Assembly: GCA_902787835.1 (NCBI GenBank)
Contig: CADAHU010000042.1
Location: forward strand, 1-37,216
Length of the DNA: 37,216 bases
Reading direction: 5' to 3'
Source: an uncultured Eubacteriales bacterium
Lineage (GTDB): Bacteria > Bacillota > Clostridia > Christensenellales > Aristaeellaceae
Part shown: positions 20,922 through 37,216 of the stretch, in pieces
Position numbering within the stretch: position 1 is the stretch's first letter
Layout: each line of letters begins with the position of its first letter
Translations under genes and position numbers: made by a program
The notes under the pieces: model-generated
Database searches by the model: none
Seen by the model: the letters and a program-made list of their open reading frames with translations, nothing else
What the model was told of the DNA's origin: nothing

Positions 20922-21848
20922 ATGAAACGAAGCGAAATTCTGCAGCGCATCGGCGTTACGCCGCCCGCCGCCGCCCGGCTGCGGGTGATCGTGGATACCG
21001 ACGCGAAAAACGAGGCCGACGATCAATACGCCATTATGCACCACCTGCTCTCCCCCATGCTGGACGTGCGGGGCATCGTGGCCGCGCATTTTGAGCAAAA
21101 GGCCGGCCACACCGGGCAATCCATGGAGGCCAGCTGGCAGGAGATCGGCAGACTGCTGGCGCTGGCGGAGATCGACGACGTGCCCTATTACCGGGGCTGC
21201 GTATCCCCCCTGCGCGACGTATCGGACACGGCGGATAACGAGGGCGTGCGCTTTATCATTCAGGAGGCGCGCAGGCCGGGCAAGCTGTACATCGCCGTGC
21301 AGGGGGCCATGACCAACGTGGCCGCCGCCCTGAACGCCGCGCCGGATATCGCCGGGAACATCGTTGTGCTCTGGAACGGCGGCGGCCCCTACCCGGAGGG
21401 ACGGCCGGAATTCAACGTGATGCAGGATCCGGAGGCCGTCCGCGCCGTGCTGCGGAGCGCCGCCGAGATATGGCAAACCGATCAGAGCGTATACTGCGCC
21501 CTGGAGGTCACGCTGGCGGAGCTGAAAAGCCGGGTATACCCCTGCGGCGCGCTGGGGCGCTACCTCTATGAGCAGCTGGAGGCCGAAAACCACGTGGAAT
21601 ATAACCCGCATTTTCTGCTGCGCACCGGCGAAAACTGGGTGCTGGGCGATAACACCACCGTGGCAATGCTGCTGATGAACCGCCTCCGCGGCAACTGGCA
21701 TATGCGGCCCGCGCCGATCCTGAGGGCCGACCTGACCTACGCACCCAACCCCGCGGGCAAGCCCATCCGCGTATACGACGCCATCGACGTACGCATGACG
21801 CTGGAGGATCTGTACGCCAAGCTGGCCCTGGCCTACGGGGAGCGGTAG
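20922..21848 (+). CDS. Nucleoside-hydrolase-fold protein, copy 1
   Basis: A 308-residue member of the IU-nucleoside hydrolase superfamily. The calcium-binding N-terminal motif is DTDAKNEADDQ (residues 25-35), two residues longer than the classic DTDPGxDDA form. LYIAVQGAMTNVAAAL (transition-state Asn), IVVLWNGGG and a C-terminal LGDNTTVAMLL complete the pattern. The fold cleaves N-ribosidic bonds, but this sub-type next to glycosidases may act on another ribosyl or glycosyl compound. It is 11 bp downstream of the GH2 gene and ends the AraC operon. A paralogue is at 29403-30464. Confidence 0.85.
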   Translation: MKRSEILQRIGVTPPAAARLRVIVDTDAKNEADDQYAIMHHLLSPMLDVRGIVAAHFEQKAGHTGQSMEASWQEIGRLLALAEIDDVPYYRGCVSPLRDVSDTADNEGVRFIIQEARRPGKLYIAVQGAMTNVAAALNAAPDIAGNIVVLWNGGGPYPEGRPEFNVMQDPEAVRAVLRSAAEIWQTDQSVYCALEVTLAELKSRVYPCGALGRYLYEQLEAENHVEYNPHFLLRTGENWVLGDNTTVAMLLMNRLRGNWHMRPAPILRADLTYAPNPAGKPIRVYDAIDVRMTLEDLYAKLALAYGER

Positions 21849-29402: not shown

Positions 29403-30464
29403 TCATTTTCCGGCGAGGGATGCAAACAGATCCCCGAAGATAAAATTGCGGTAGCAATAGGTGACCTGGCGGATCAAATGCCGTCCTTCCCCGGCCTGAG
29501 CCCAATGGAAATCATCGGTCAGCACGGGCGCGGGGATGAGCCTGGAGGGCGTCCAGTTGGGGTTCTTCAGGGCGGCAATGGCGGAAATATCCCATATGAT
29601 CCGGCTCCAGGCCACGCGCTCCGTGGGGAAGGCGGCCAGGTATTCCTCCATCTGGTCGCAGTTTTCCCGCAGAGAGGAGCCGCGCAGCAGCTGCATCATG
29701 GCGATCTCCGCCGCCGGCTCCCGGAAGGCGTCCAGCACCGTCCGGCAGAGCGCGTCGCACACCGGCCCCTTGCCCAGCAGGCGGCCCTTCAGCTCCTCCT
29801 CCGATACGGTCAGATGGGAGGCCACGTTGTTGCAGGGAACCCAGATCATGGGCACGCCGCTTTCCAGCACGATCTGGGCGGCGTACACATCCTGGATCAG
29901 GTTGAATTCGATCCCGTGGCCGTAGGCGGGCATATGACCCCCCAGCCACACCAGCACGATGCGGTCGGCAAGCCGCGGCTCCATCAGCAGGGCGGAGGCG
30001 ATGTTGGTCAGCGCCCCGATGGCGGCCACATACAGCGGCTCCGGGCCTTCCATGCCGCGGCGGACCAGATCCCGCGCCGCGTCGCTCTCCACGGGCTCTC
30101 TCCGGCTGGCCAGGTACCGCGGGGAGCCGTGATAAACCCGGCCCTCCGTGGGCAAACCCATCAGGGACAGGATGCGGACGATCTCATCATAGCTTTGGTT
30201 CATGCCGTCCGCCGGGCTTTCCGAATGCCCGTTCAGCGAGCCTGCCTGCGCCGCCAGCGCCGCGTCCTGGTTCAGCCTTTGGAAGCAATCATGGGAAAAG
30301 GGCACGGCATACAGCGCCTCCAGCTGGAAGCGCTCGGGGGAGGCCGCCGCCCAGGCGATGGCAAACTGGTCGTCCACCTCGTTTTTTGCATCGGTATCGA
30401 TCACCAGGCGCATTTTGCCCAGCGGCGCGTTCATCCGTTCAATTCTTTCTTTTTCGTTCAGCAT
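29403..30464 (-). CDS. Nucleoside-hydrolase-fold protein, copy 2
   Basis: About 353 residues. Calcium-binding motif DTDAKNEVDDQ (23-33), LYVAAIGALTNIASALL (catalytic Asn region), IVLVWLGGHMP and IEFNLIQDVYAAQ. It cleaves an N-ribosidic bond if it acts as its family does. Encoded between an ABC permease and ribokinase, this is the natural step from imported nucleoside to base plus ribose. It begins 5 bp after the permease stop. It shares the unusual motif form with the gene at 20922-21848 but is about 45 residues longer. Confidence 0.87.
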   Translation of the reverse strand: MLNEKERIERMNAPLGKMRLVIDTDAKNEVDDQFAIAWAAASPERFQLEALYAVPFSHDCFQRLNQDAALAAQAGSLNGHSESPADGMNQSYDEIVRILSLMGLPTEGRVYHGSPRYLASRREPVESDAARDLVRRGMEGPEPLYVAAIGALTNIASALLMEPRLADRIVLVWLGGHMPAYGHGIEFNLIQDVYAAQIVLESGVPMIWVPCNNVASHLTVSEEELKGRLLGKGPVCDALCRTVLDAFREPAAEIAMMQLLRGSSLRENCDQMEEYLAAFPTERVAWSRIIWDISAIAALKNPNWTPSRLIPAPVLTDDFHWAQAGEGRHLIRQVTYCYRNFIFGDLFASLAGK

Positions 30465-30469
30465 AAGGA

Positions 30470-31312
30470 TCAGCCTTTCACGCTGCCGGACGCAATGCCG
30501 GACACAAAGTACTTTTGGAAGGGCAGGAAGAGCAATACGGGGATCAGCGCCGAAATCATGGAGCTGGAATAGATCAGATTCCAATGCACCACGTTTTCCT
30601 CCTTAAACGCCGTGATCGCCACCGTAATGGTCTTGACCGCGTCCTTTCTGGCGGCCAGCAGGGGCCACAGATAATTGTTCCACTCGTTTACGAAGGTCAT
30701 CAGGCACATGGCGATGGTGGTGGGCACGCACAGCGGCATCACCACATGCCAGTAGCAGGTAAACCAGCTGGCGCCGTCCAGGTCGGAGGCCTCCAGCAGC
30801 GATATGGGCACATCCTTGAAGGCCTGCCGGTACATAAACAGCGTTAGCCCGTTGGCCAGGGAGGGCAATATCAGGGAAGAATAAGTATTGACCAGCCCCA
30901 GCCCGTTGATCAGCTGATAGAGGGGCAGCGCGATGGCCTCTCCCGGCACCATAAAGGTGAGCAGCAGCAGGGCGTACAGCGGCTTTTGCCCGCGGAAGTG
31001 ATAAAAGGCGAAGGCGTAGGCCGCCACCGAGCACATGATCACCGATACCGGCAGGATCACGCCCACCACCAGGAAGGTGTTCAGGAAGAAGCGCTCAAAA
31101 TGATAATCCCGGAACAGCGCGCCGTAGGCTTCCGCCGTCCAGTGCTCCGGCCAGAGGGTGTGGAGCTGAAACACGGTGTTGTACTGATAGATTTCCTGAT
31201 CCGTCCGGAAGGAGGAGACCAGCGGATAGAGGATCGGGAAGAGCGCGATGACAGAGATCAGCAGGAGCCCCAGCACCAGCAGCGCCCGCGTCAGATTTTT
31301 CTTAAGCGTCAT
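30470..31312 (-). CDS. MalG-type ABC importer permease
   Basis: A 280-residue inner-membrane protein with six predicted helices. The cytoplasmic EAA loop is EASDLDGASWFTCYWHVVMPLCVPT near residue 190, which docks the ATPase. An N-terminal helix and a periplasmic loop (SSFRTDQEIYQYN) are typical of MalG-like subunits. It partners the permease at 31322-32182. No ATPase gene is present in the operon, so an MsmX/UgpC-like shared ATPase elsewhere is probably used (inference). GAGGTGA precedes the start. Confidence 0.9.
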   Translation of the reverse strand: MTLKKNLTRALLVLGLLLISVIALFPILYPLVSSFRTDQEIYQYNTVFQLHTLWPEHWTAEAYGALFRDYHFERFFLNTFLVVGVILPVSVIMCSVAAYAFAFYHFRGQKPLYALLLLTFMVPGEAIALPLYQLINGLGLVNTYSSLILPSLANGLTLFMYRQAFKDVPISLLEASDLDGASWFTCYWHVVMPLCVPTTIAMCLMTFVNEWNNYLWPLLAARKDAVKTITVAITAFKEENVVHWNLIYSSSMISALIPVLLFLPFQKYFVSGIASGSVKG

Positions 31313-33597: not shown

Positions 33598-33632
33598 TAG
33601 TTTTCTTTGTCCAATTCGTTTCCCTATATTCC

Positions 33633-33660
33633 ATTATATAAATCATTCCCCGTTTGTCAA
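33633..33660 (-). promoter_or_regulatory. Promoter of the second importer operon
   Basis: On the minus strand TTGACA (33660-33655, perfect consensus) and TATAAT (33638-33633, perfect consensus) are separated by 16 bp. So strong a core promoter would need tight repression, which fits the flanking palindromes and divergent LacI gene. Confidence 0.88.
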
Positions 33661-33686
33661 TCGGGCGCGTCGGCTTCGCAGGGCTT

Positions 33687-33701
33687 TATTTTACTAAATT
33701 T
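33687..33701. promoter_or_regulatory. Putative LacI-family operator O2
   Basis: Read on minus it begins AAATTTAGTAAAAT, differing from O1 at only a couple of outer positions. Its centre lies 104 bp from that of O1, about ten helical turns, and it is about 20 bp upstream of the lacI-type gene's -35 box. It could serve repression by DNA looping and also autoregulation. Confidence 0.55.
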
Positions 33702-33721
33702 GTCATGCACTGTTCAAAGTT

Positions 33722-33750
33722 TTGTCATCCAATGCCCTTCCGCTTATGAT
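33722..33750 (+). promoter_or_regulatory. Promoter of the LacI-family gene
   Basis: TTGTCA (33722-33727) and TATGAT (33745-33750) are separated by 17 bp. The start codon is about 40 bp downstream. Confidence 0.65.
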
Positions 33751-33789
33751 ACAATGCTCCATAGATCAACGCAAAGGAAAGTGTGTGCC

Positions 33790-34842
33790 ATGAAACTGAA
33801 GGAGCTGGCGGCCCAGGCGGGCGTATCGGCAGCCACCGTATCCATCGTCCGGCAGGGCAAGCCGGGGGTCAGCGCCGCGGTGCGCCGCAGGATCCAGCTG
33901 CTGCTGGAGGAGCACGGCTACGATTATTTGCCCTACAGCCAGGCGGCCCATCCGCCCGCGCAGCTTCCCGTCCCCGGCGCGGAGAACCGGCGCATCTGCC
34001 TGCTGAAGCATTACCGCAGCGCCATGCTGACCGATAATAACGAAGGCTTTGTGGAGAGCGTCATCGACGCCATCGAATATGCGGCCCGCAGCGCTGGCTA
34101 TTCCCTGGTGCTCACCGCGGTGAACGCCGCGCAGTACGCGGAGCTGCTGGAAACCGATTTTCAGGCAGAGTACGCCGGCATCATCGTGATCGCCACGGAG
34201 ATGACCCGGCGGGAAATCGCGCTGCTGGAGCGCGTCGTCCTTCCCGTCGTGGTGCTGGATACCGATTATTCCTATATTCCCCATACCTCCGTTTCCATGA
34301 ACAACCGGAAATTGGCCTGGCAGGCGGTATCCCGGCTGGCGCGGGCGGGCGAGGTGGGCTACCTGCAGTCCAGCCAGGAGACTGGCAATTTTGCCGCCCG
34401 GGCCATCGGATACAGCGAGGCGGTGGAAAGCCTGGGGCTCAGCAGGGAAGAGCGCCTGGTTTTCAGCATTACGCCCGATCTGAACCAGGCCGAAAAGGAT
34501 ATGGACGCCTGGCTGTCAAAAAACCGGTCCCTCCCCAAAGCGCTCTTTGCCGATAACGACGTGATCGCCATCGGCTGCATGCGCTCCCTGCTGCGCCGCG
34601 GCGTGCGCATCCCACAGGACGTGCAGATCATCGCCGTGGACAACACGCTGCTCTCCCAGGTGATCACCCCCGCCCTTTCCTCGGTGCAGATCTCCAAGCG
34701 GCACATGGGGGAATTATCCATCCGGCTGCTGCTGGAAAAGATCGCCTCCCCCGAAACGCCCGACGTGCACGTCCGCATCGATACGCAGCTGATCTGCCGG
34801 GAATCTCTGGCGGAACAAGAGAAAGAGGTTGAAGCGCCATGA
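33790..34842 (+). CDS. LacI-family transcriptional regulator
   Basis: A 350-residue repressor. The N-terminal helix-turn-helix and hinge read MKLKELAAQAGVSAATVSIV, followed by VRRRIQLLLEEHGYDY. The effector domain is a PBP1-like fold: RREIALLERVVLPVVVLDTDY in the middle and ALFADNDVIAIGCMRSLLRRGVRIPQDVQIIAVDNTLLSQ near 265, with a C-terminal SSVQISKRHMGELSIRLLLEKI. The start at 33790 follows AAAGGAAA. It probably represses the divergent importer operon in the absence of its sugar or nucleoside ligand. Its stop overlaps the next start codon by 4 bp (ATGA). Confidence 0.92.
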   Translation: MKLKELAAQAGVSAATVSIVRQGKPGVSAAVRRRIQLLLEEHGYDYLPYSQAAHPPAQLPVPGAENRRICLLKHYRSAMLTDNNEGFVESVIDAIEYAARSAGYSLVLTAVNAAQYAELLETDFQAEYAGIIVIATEMTRREIALLERVVLPVVVLDTDYSYIPHTSVSMNNRKLAWQAVSRLARAGEVGYLQSSQETGNFAARAIGYSEAVESLGLSREERLVFSITPDLNQAEKDMDAWLSKNRSLPKALFADNDVIAIGCMRSLLRRGVRIPQDVQIIAVDNTLLSQVITPALSSVQISKRHMGELSIRLLLEKIASPETPDVHVRIDTQLICRESLAEQEKEVEAP

Positions 34843-37216
34843 TTTACTTTCAGCGGTTTTACCTGGATCGGGAAAAGGATATGGCGGTGGAGCTGTATAT
34901 GGAGGGCGAGCGGCTGTTTTACGTGATGCGCACGCCCAACCACCATACGGGGAACCTGATCACCAACCTGGCCCGGCTGTGCGGCCTGGAGACCGGCCTG
35001 GACGAAAACGGGCTGAAGGTGATCCGGGACGAGATCCCCTGCTATTTTGACGGGGACAACCGCAGGGTGTACATCCTGCGGCTGGGGAACACCAAGATCG
35101 CCAACATCTATCCCGACGGCCGGGTGGAGCTGAAGGCATCGATCCCCGCCATCTCCAAAACGCTGATGAGCCAGACCAAGGATTACCGGCTGGGCGTGGA
35201 AAAGACCATCGTAAAAACCTACATCCGCAGCGAATGCAAATTCCGAACCGATCTGCACACCCATATGAACGGCAACCTGCCCCCGGACGCGCTGATCGCC
35301 CTGGGGATCATGCACCAGATCGGATATCCCTATTATTACATCAAAAAGCTGGGCCTCAGCTGCACCCCCTCCCAGCTGGAGGGGCTGGAGGCCCGGCGGC
35401 GGGTGGCGGAGGCGGAGCTTGCCTCCCTGCCGCTGACGGGGTACCGCCGGGAGCGCAGGATCGACGATTATACCCTGATCAACTTTGCCGATCTGATCCT
35501 GGGCAACCTGCCCGCCGCGGCGGACAACATCGACCGGATCCGCAACTCCCTGACCATTCCCAAGGACGGCCAGGCCGTTTTTGAAAACCTGGAAAAGGTG
35601 TATCTGTACCGCTATGTGTTCACCAAGGCCCAAAAGGCCAGGGAGCAGTTTACCGGCGTCAACATCGAGGGCATCCCGGACCGGGAGGTGCGCGCCTACG
35701 CCGCCCGCATCCTCCGGGACCGGGAGGATCCCCGGTACAGCCACAACACCCTCTACCAGGATCTGCTGCTGTGGATCGCCCGGGAGTATCAAAGGCACGG
35801 CATTCAGTACGCGGAGATCACCGATACCGCCTTGCTCAAGCGCCAGGAGTTCCCCGACAAGCTGCGGCAGATCCATGAGATCATGCCCACCGTCACCCGG
35901 GAGACCGGCGTGCTGCTACGCTTCCTGGCCGGCATCCGCCGCATCCCCCTGACCATCATCAAGGATCAATTGGTGCCTGACGATTACCTGGCCGATAACC
36001 TGCGTTGCCTCCGGGTGGTGGCGGGCGATCCCTACGTGGCGGGCAGCGATATCATCGGCGAGGAGATCAACGATATCCTGGAGATGCGCGGCGTGATCCA
36101 CGAGCTGGTGGAGATCGCCGGGGAGCATCCCGGGTTTGTGATCCGCATCCACGCGGGCGAGAACGACTCCCTGCGGGACAACGTGGCCAATAGCATCCGC
36201 TGCGTGGCGGAGTCCCTCTCTCCCGGCCAGCCCATGCCGCCCCTGCGGGTGGGCCATGGCCTGTATACCTGCGATCTGCGCAGCGCCAAGGGGAAAAAGC
36301 TGCTGGAGGATATGCGCCGGTACGGCGTTACGCTGGAGTTCCAGATCACCTCCAACGTGCGGCTCAACAACCTGAGCCATATGAGCCGCCACCCGCTGCG
36401 CCAGTACCTGCAGGCGGGCATCCGCTGCGTGCAGGGCACCGACGGCGGCGCGCTTTACGGCACCAATTCCATCGACGAGGAGCTGAGCCTGGAAAAGCTG
36501 CTGGGGCTCACCTTTCCGGAATTGTGCCGCATGCGGCAGGCGGAGGACGATATCCTGTCGGAAAGCCTGCGGGTATTTGAGGAAAAACGCCGGGCTTTCC
36601 TGGCCGCCTGCCCCGGCGGGGACGCGGAGCAGTATTACCTGCGCAGGATGGAGGCCGCCCAATCGCCCCGGCGCAAGCTGTGGCAAAGCAGCGGCCGCAT
36701 CGGCGCGGAGGAAAGCCTGCAGGGCCAGCTGGCATCGCTGCCCGAGGGCATGACGCCCATTGTGGTGGCCGGCGGCAGCTTTAACAGCAGCGGACGGCGC
36801 ACCCAGATGCGGCCCGAGGACCGCAATTTCATCGATGGTCTGCTGGCCGGGGCCGATCCCAGCCGGGTCTTCTTTGTGGTGGGCCATACCCTCTCCGCCC
36901 AGGAAGGGTATCTTGTGCGTCAGGCCGCCGGCGCATTCCGCGTGTTTGCCATCGTGCCCAGCCAGATCACGCGGCAGGAAAGGGCGCGGCTGCAGGCGTC
37001 GGGCGTCGGGATCCTGGTGTCCATCGAAAGCTCCGGCATGGGGCTGTACAAGAGCTTTTCCTACGAGGTTTTCAGGCGCTATCCCTCCGTGCTGCTGGCC
37101 TTCGACGGCAATTCCGCCGCCCTCAACCTGATCCAGGAGGCCCGCAACAGCCGCAACAAATGCCGGATCTTTGTCAACTCCCATTCCCGCGGCCTGTCCG
37201 AAAAGGCCGCGCTGCT
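34839..37216 (+). CDS. Adenosine-deaminase-family protein fused to a Rossmann-like (SLOG/DprA-like) domain, truncated at window end
   Basis: At least 792 residues, open to the window edge. Residues 1-130 are an unrecognised N-terminal domain. From 135 to about 590 is an adenosine-deaminase TIM barrel: metal ligands H140 and H142 (DLHTHMNGNLPP), H438 and catalytic E441 (RIHAGEND), H473 (VGHGL), the TSN strand (504-506) and metal Asp535 (QGTDGG). Canonical enzymes have a second Asp where this has Gly536. After a charged linker, residues 639-792 begin IVVAGGSFNSSG and contain VFFVVGHTLSAQEG and a predicted alternating strand/helix pattern resembling SLOG/DprA folds (inference). It overlaps the LacI gene by 4 bp. 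Probably deaminates a nucleoside or nucleotide derivative; substrate unknown. Confidence 0.8.
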   Translation, partial: MIYFQRFYLDREKDMAVELYMEGERLFYVMRTPNHHTGNLITNLARLCGLETGLDENGLKVIRDEIPCYFDGDNRRVYILRLGNTKIANIYPDGRVELKASIPAISKTLMSQTKDYRLGVEKTIVKTYIRSECKFRTDLHTHMNGNLPPDALIALGIMHQIGYPYYYIKKLGLSCTPSQLEGLEARRRVAEAELASLPLTGYRRERRIDDYTLINFADLILGNLPAAADNIDRIRNSLTIPKDGQAVFENLEKVYLYRYVFTKAQKAREQFTGVNIEGIPDREVRAYAARILRDREDPRYSHNTLYQDLLLWIAREYQRHGIQYAEITDTALLKRQEFPDKLRQIHEIMPTVTRETGVLLRFLAGIRRIPLTIIKDQLVPDDYLADNLRCLRVVAGDPYVAGSDIIGEEINDILEMRGVIHELVEIAGEHPGFVIRIHAGENDSLRDNVANSIRCVAESLSPGQPMPPLRVGHGLYTCDLRSAKGKKLLEDMRRYGVTLEFQITSNVRLNNLSHMSRHPLRQYLQAGIRCVQGTDGGALYGTNSIDEELSLEKLLGLTFPELCRMRQAEDDILSESLRVFEEKRRAFLAACPGGDAEQYYLRRMEAAQSPRRKLWQSSGRIGAEESLQGQLASLPEGMTPIVVAGGSFNSSGRRTQMRPEDRNFIDGLLAGADPSRVFFVVGHTLSAQEGYLVRQAAGAFRVFAIVPSQITRQERARLQASGVGILVSIESSGMGLYKSFSYEVFRRYPSVLLAFDGNSAALNLIQEARNSRNKCRIFVNSHSRGLSEKAAL

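Follow-up and report, generated by a model that had tools for sequence, protein, structure and literature searches.

A conserved three-domain protein joining an adenosine-deaminase barrel to a SLOG-type C-terminus in rumen and gut Clostridia

Among the closest described systems is Cad1, a protein of about 600 aa, linked to type III CRISPR, in which a CARF sensor lies ahead of a deaminase of the adenosine deaminase (ADA) fold; the binding of cyclic oligoadenylate leads it to convert ATP to ITP (PMC11645235). The protein described here is encoded at positions 34839-37214 on the forward strand of contig CADAHU010000042.1 (C42 in our numbering) from an uncultured Eubacteriales bacterium, whose genome comprises 2.57 Mb in 206 contigs; the window, meaning the whole stretch of DNA analysed, is this entire contig of 37,216 nt. 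Like Cad1, the protein unites a predicted Rossmann-type nucleotide sensor with an ADA-fold deaminase, and the ADA parts of the two align. Unlike Cad1, the fusion carries a SLOG-type domain at its C-terminus, is about 815 aa long and shows no linked signalling genes in the loci surveyed. Pfam finds no CARF domain in it, and CARF_ADA, the one PADLOC model reported for the window protein, aligns solely at residues 313-538; the same model matches 42 of 51 members of the family (best E 1.8e-9) and, where a range is listed, which holds for two members, falls within the deaminase. By analogy, the fusion would most plausibly work like Cad1, without belonging to the Cad1 family.

RdrB, another large ADA-fold protein, is likewise extended at its N-terminus and has its catalytic core split by an insertion. 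Its active-site residues, given as H152, H154, H498, E501 and H530 (PMC9994260), are spaced similarly to H140, H142, H438, E441 and H473 of the fusion. The original prediction had mentioned RdrB for comparison, and profile searches did not bear the comparison out: RdrB is absent from the PADLOC matches (E≤10) of the 51 members, the presence of an RdrB model in the library being assumed, and is not among the best 50 Foldseek matches of the full-length model. RdrA is likewise absent from the PADLOC matches of 143 of the 277 neighbours encoded within two genes of the fusion. With no RdrB profile match and no RdrA in the scanned neighbours, RADAR was rejected. Classical ADA and ADAL (PF00962) share the barrel and the metal and catalytic residues with the fusion, which differs from them in two extra conserved domains, in N144 for Asp and in G536 for a second Asp.

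A conserved fusion with an ADA active site

The open reading frame (ORF) starts at an ATG and stays open for 792 residues to the contig end, no stop being met. As the window is a complete contig, the 3' end of the gene is lost; because closed homologues with an assigned start measure 795-847 aa, about 20-40 C-terminal residues are missing. A beta-rich N-terminal domain that matches no known family (34839-35237, residues ~1-133) precedes the adenosine-deaminase barrel (35238-36536, residues ~134-566), which is recognized by PF00962 and by its metal and catalytic residues. A variable linker (36537-36737, residues 567-633) then leads to the SLOG-like Rossmannoid domain (36738-37214, from residue 634 onward), whose last 20-40 residues lie past the contig end and whose assignment rests on an AlphaFold2 (AF2) model, Foldseek and hhalign. 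The segment IVVAGGSFNSSG occupies residues 641-652.

An unbroken frame joining a deaminase to a second alpha/beta domain, as originally predicted, is what the window contains: a single ORF with both PF00962 and the C-terminal Rossmannoid. Nor is this a chance frame, because residues 634-790 are conserved and the equivalent region of a homologue (L060), modelled alone by AF2 from 30 sequences, reaches a predicted local distance difference test score (pLDDT) of 92.6, with an alternating beta-alpha fold. Mean pairwise identity among 51 aligned sequences is 58% over residues 634-790, as against 32% in the linker; it is 70% in the barrel and 74% over residues 1-130, the N-terminal domain being the most conserved of the three. 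In the L060 model the N-terminal domain consists of strands and one helix, with 10-residue pLDDT means of 78-92 up to residue 100, dropping to 43-59 over residues 101-130; Pfam, run on the whole window protein, reports the ADA family alone and nothing for this domain.

Membership of the barrel in PF00962 (A_deaminase) follows from a match over residues 313-565 at E 8e-12, with 45.3 bits against a gathering score of 27. Scores for the NCBIfam equivalogs TIGR01430 and NF006846 fall far below their cut-offs (33.3 versus 216.55 bits and 38.3 versus 459 bits). The residues of the HxH, HAGE and GHG motifs and the Asp of TD, namely H140, H142, H438, E441, H473 and D535, occur without exception in the 51 aligned sequences, the window's included. 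Two positions depart from the classical enzyme. The profile pairs tdlhthmngnl with TDIHRHLDGNI of Salmonella ADA, so that residue 144, where classical ADA has Asp after HxH, is Asn in 46 sequences and Ser in the remaining 5. Gly536 is invariant (51/51) where ADA carries another Asp next to the catalytic one, seen as a TDD/TDDP-like stretch in the alignment. Substitutions close to the ribose end can set nucleotide deaminases apart from nucleoside deaminases. The nearest solved structures to the full-length model by Foldseek include ADA, AMP deaminase, ADAL/MAPDA and Cad1.

The fusion recurs well beyond the window. Matches occur in 11 of 100 genomes (own included), each spanning the deaminase and C-terminal parts, and one of these genomes (G007) has them split between separate contigs. 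The window's own genome, queried with a relative's C-terminal region, returned the window copy as its sole match. A search of 391 genomes of the class added 10 full-length members, the window's own not counted, and a divergent protein of 783 aa (L024); a search of 398 genomes of the phylum gave no full-length match beyond the window's own and another known from the class search. A scan of genome collections confirmed at least 505 of 595 pattern-matching stretches, one gene being able to yield two, and 80 loci were kept. Their titles mainly name rumen and gut Clostridia; Blautia, Pseudobutyrivibrio, Solobacterium and Erysipelotrichaceae account for a few. The fusion is kept among these homologues: the match extends to residue 789 or beyond in 78 of the 80, and L101 and L111 stop at contig ends. 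Counts of genes given below refer to the 77 loci with one ORF of more than 500 aa carrying HAGEND and KDGQAVF (L114, L119 and L121 are left out).

In a tree of 87 rows, 45 of them unlabelled, bacterial family labels cluster, requiring 8 changes where the minimum is 5 and the shuffled mean 21.4. Two loci titled Blautia sp. (L095 and L126) branch inside its Oscillospiraceae part, which may reflect transfer or misbinned contigs. One copy (L008:1501-3855, genome G001) contains an in-frame TAG, from either a broken gene or an assembly error.

Divergent relatives with the same domain order are encoded at L024:904-3252 and L141:1486-3837, in small genomes of two members of a single genus within the same order; these proteins have 783-784 aa, 24-25% identity to the window protein, a shorter N-terminal domain and a SLOG domain nearer to LSDAT. 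A single-domain ADA relative without SLOG (L143:1453-2556; 367 aa), 32% identical to the L024 barrel, may be an ancestor-like or a reduced form. Its gene adjoins a NUDIX-like ORF and lies two ORFs away from a radical-SAM-like one, both judged by eye.

The fusion is real, conserved, widespread and unnamed: a three-domain deaminase with a SLOG-type C-terminus. The libraries searched say of this large rumen and gut family just 'adenosine deaminase', its SLOG domain being caught by no Pfam model, and an extension of this kind has no name in Pfam, NCBIfam or PADLOC. The literature searched, which did not include the paper defining LSDAT (reportedly that of Burroughs, 2015, in Nucleic Acids Research), yielded no report of an ADA-SLOG fusion. 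The parts of PMC12948488, PMC9503650, PMC7159879 and PMC10952713 that were covered mention SLOG without an ADA fusion.

The C-terminal domain

The original assignment of this domain to SLOG came from motifs and is now backed by structure and profile comparison. Foldseek of the C-terminal model against the PDB returned 1323 matches (E≤10), and 49 of the best 50 are entries of the SLOG superfamily, NorQD being the exception. The matches comprise Moco carrier proteins, TRPM8, YvdD/LOG, YgdH, DprA and TRPM2, with the Moco carrier protein and YgdH counted as members of the superfamily. Template modelling (TM) scores lie near 0.5-0.6, moderate when taken alone. In hhalign, the C-terminal alignment matches the C-termini of L024 and L141 at 92.6% (E 4.7e-7), whereas 44 unrelated neighbour families reach 2.8% and E 0.016 at best.

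Those two homologues of the same architecture support a tie to LSDAT, the SLOG of TRPM type. The C-terminal fragment of L024 matches LSDAT_prok (PF18171) at E 8e-4 (19.1 bits), and full-length L024 does so at 0.0069 (16.1 bits); neither reaches the gathering score of 25.4. One of the eight proteins labelled A5 matches LSDAT_euk at E 0.0014. With LSDAT_prok and TRPM SLOG proteins, then, the fusion has this profile match and the TRPM8 and TRPM2 structural matches in common; it differs in that L024 stays under the gathering score, the window protein has no match to PF18171 at E≤1, and there is no channel. Searching 148 genomes of the class with PF18171 gave one match, under the cut-off, and the best hit of the C-terminal profile against PDB sequences was an arginase at E 0.32, taken as chance. 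ADP-ribose is reported to bind the SLOG region of TRPM2 (PMC13143021). On the model and the profile alignments together, a SLOG-type fold for the C-terminal domain appears well supported but remote.

PGGxGTxxE is the catalytic motif of the LOG phosphoribohydrolases. The LOG and YgdH N-glycosidases and DprA share the SLOG superfamily fold with the C-terminus of the fusion, which differs from them in having no sequence-profile similarity to them and in lacking that motif in all 77 proteins (0/77, L101 and L111 ending before the region). The corresponding place in the fold, matched by eye, is taken by FDGNSAAxNLIQEA. Other features are retained almost throughout: GGSF is kept in 75 of 77 proteins and is followed there by 156-188 residues (the two without it are L101 and L111), YKSxx(Y/D)E(I/L/V)F is found in 74 of 77, and Y737, K738, S739, E743, G757, N763, Q766 and N770 show no exception among the 51 aligned sequences. 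Given the missing LOG catalytic motif, the domain probably serves as a sensor and not as a further enzyme; judged from the alignment, strongly conserved polar residues without the known catalytic motif would point to a bound ligand more than to a structural function, a different chemistry being possible.

A proposed ligand-controlled deaminase and its rivals

These features suggest a stand-alone chromosomal enzyme in which a metal-dependent ADA barrel would strip the amino group off an adenine nucleoside or nucleotide, while the C-terminal SLOG domain would bind a small nucleotide-type ligand and, once occupied, control the barrel or position its substrate. From the computed architecture, active-site residues and model we infer the deaminase activity, the ligand binding and the allosteric coupling, and we put the chance that this whole account is right at about even. 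The original idea of an enzyme that unites sensing with deamination for a ribonucleotide-like compound is plausible, and ADA-SLOG probably acts as a deaminase that some small molecule turns on or off. More tentatively, and with the balance tipping somewhat against it, ADA-SLOG could constitute a new class of adenine-nucleotide deaminases gated by a second messenger or a metabolite. It would be a chromosomal, non-CRISPR counterpart to Cad1, through which gut Clostridia would tune their purine nucleotide pool in response to a nucleotide signal (of ADP-ribose type, cyclic or guanosine type) that would be new for these bacteria. If the SLOG domain does gate the deaminase, its ligand would reveal a nucleotide signal of gut bacteria, and sensor-deaminase fusions would not be confined to phage defence. 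Since only one gene is involved, a single purified protein would suffice for a direct test.

Several results weigh against a SLOG-gated enzyme. The Foldseek values are modest, with one of the 1323 matches at E≤0.001, the best at 9.7e-4 and a TM of 0.59/0.69. No Pfam SLOG family is found for any of 30 members (11 families listed, E≤10). Alignment of the C-terminal domain by hhalign to LOG and to DprA was null; the LOG set held 6 sequences picked by the LOG motif and the DprA set the only 2 that passed the filter, and LOG against DprA themselves reaches just 1.3%. No signal-producing enzyme is linked to the fusion in the 77 loci, with 143 neighbours scanned by Pfam, which leaves the presumed ligand without a source in the neighbourhood. 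The full-length L060 model, finally, is less sure, with a pLDDT of 83 and values below 50 in several barrel loops, and its domain packing is for that reason uninformative.

Enzymes of the LOG and YgdH (PpnN) type cleave the base from the sugar, and a bifunctional catabolic protein, the barrel deaminating AMP or adenosine and the SLOG domain performing such a cleavage, is an unlikely rival to the ligand-controlled deaminase. LOG, YvdD and YgdH are among the best structural matches of the C-terminal model, the polar residues listed above (Y737, K738, S739, E743, N763, Q766 and N770) are fixed, and N144 in place of the classical Asp could, by analogy with ADAL/MAPDA, admit a 5'-phosphate; the missing LOG motif (0/77) and the FDGNSAAxNLIQEA segment in its place speak against such a protein.

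The same fixed polar residues, by arguing for ligand binding, count against an ordinary purine-salvage adenosine deaminase whose C-terminal domain merely stabilizes or oligomerizes the protein, as do the invariant G536 and the patchy occurrence in 11 of 100 genomes. We consider this explanation rather improbable, even though the gene tree clusters by family label and the fusion behaves as if filling the ADA role. A PF00962 search of the 100 genomes found a match in 15; in 10 (own included) it is the fusion, with no other match there, in 3 others, which lack the fusion, it is an ADA of canonical length, and in the last 2 it is weak. These numbers are small, because the search missed the split G007 copy and several genomes are incomplete.

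Gene neighbourhood

Flanks of up to 10 kb, with genes called by a custom codon score, gave neighbours on both sides at 67 of the 77 loci. The 277 neighbours within two genes fall into 223 clusters; the 143 scanned were of 110-700 aa, usually one per cluster and limited by total length. The most frequent cluster occurs at 15 of the 77 loci, in varying position and strand, and the next at 7. Pfam assigns the 143 to 182 families, the 25 commonest of which are of general chromosomal kinds (ABC_tran with 5 members, aminotransferase with 4, and MatE, EamA, GGDEF and AAA_21 with 3 each) and include neither integrases nor transposases. PADLOC matches 22 families at E≤1e-10; mad3 accounts for 5 members and every other family for one, including reverse-transcriptase, viperin, PsyrT, ShosT and Avs1a models. 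We read them as single genes of general kinds, not systems. Searches of viral contigs, plasmids and phages were all negative, on which ground a mobile element or phage gene was rejected. The fusion looks like a chromosomal singleton without a widely shared neighbour.

An anti-phage effector akin to Cad1 or RADAR, in which a nucleotide signal, bound by the SLOG domain on infection, would trigger ATP deamination, would find encouragement in the Cad1-like architecture, the CARF_ADA matches, the PADLOC and AAA_21 neighbours and the SLOG domain that serves as the sensor of Thoeris ThsA (PMC12948488), but the lack of a shared neighbour, the scattered single-gene matches without RdrA, the absence of integrases, transposases and mobile copies from the sets just described, and the family-wise clustering of the tree make it highly improbable.

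In the window itself, the fusion follows a LacI-family regulator (33607-34842, forward strand; Pfam LacI and Peripla_BP_3), whose likely start, judged from the sequence, is an in-frame ATG at 33790 and which overlaps the start of the fusion by 4 bp. The importer, nucleoside hydrolase and PfkB genes are divergent to the fusion and, like the overlapping LacI gene, peculiar to this window. The original prediction had taken such uptake and catabolic genes for its partners, a view that the 80 homologous loci contradict: searched by tblastn (E≤1e-10), they match the solute-binding protein in 0/80, the nucleoside hydrolase in 0/80, PfkB in 1/80, the two permeases in 5/80 and 7/80, and LacI in 3/80. 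The best permease and LacI matches are 24-29% identical, and those to LacI (L129, L133 and L135) lie more than 7 kb upstream of the fusion. An operon with the ABC importer, nucleoside hydrolase, PfkB and LacI was rejected, as nothing of it recurs in the homologous loci beyond these weak permease and LacI matches and the one PfkB match.

The window holds two nucleoside-hydrolase-like genes, at 29403-30584 on the reverse strand and at 20922-21848 on the forward strand, the second judged from its IVDTDAKNEADDQ motif. The first, beside the importer and PfkB, likely belongs to a nucleoside-uptake cluster that, in other genomes, has no tie to the fusion.

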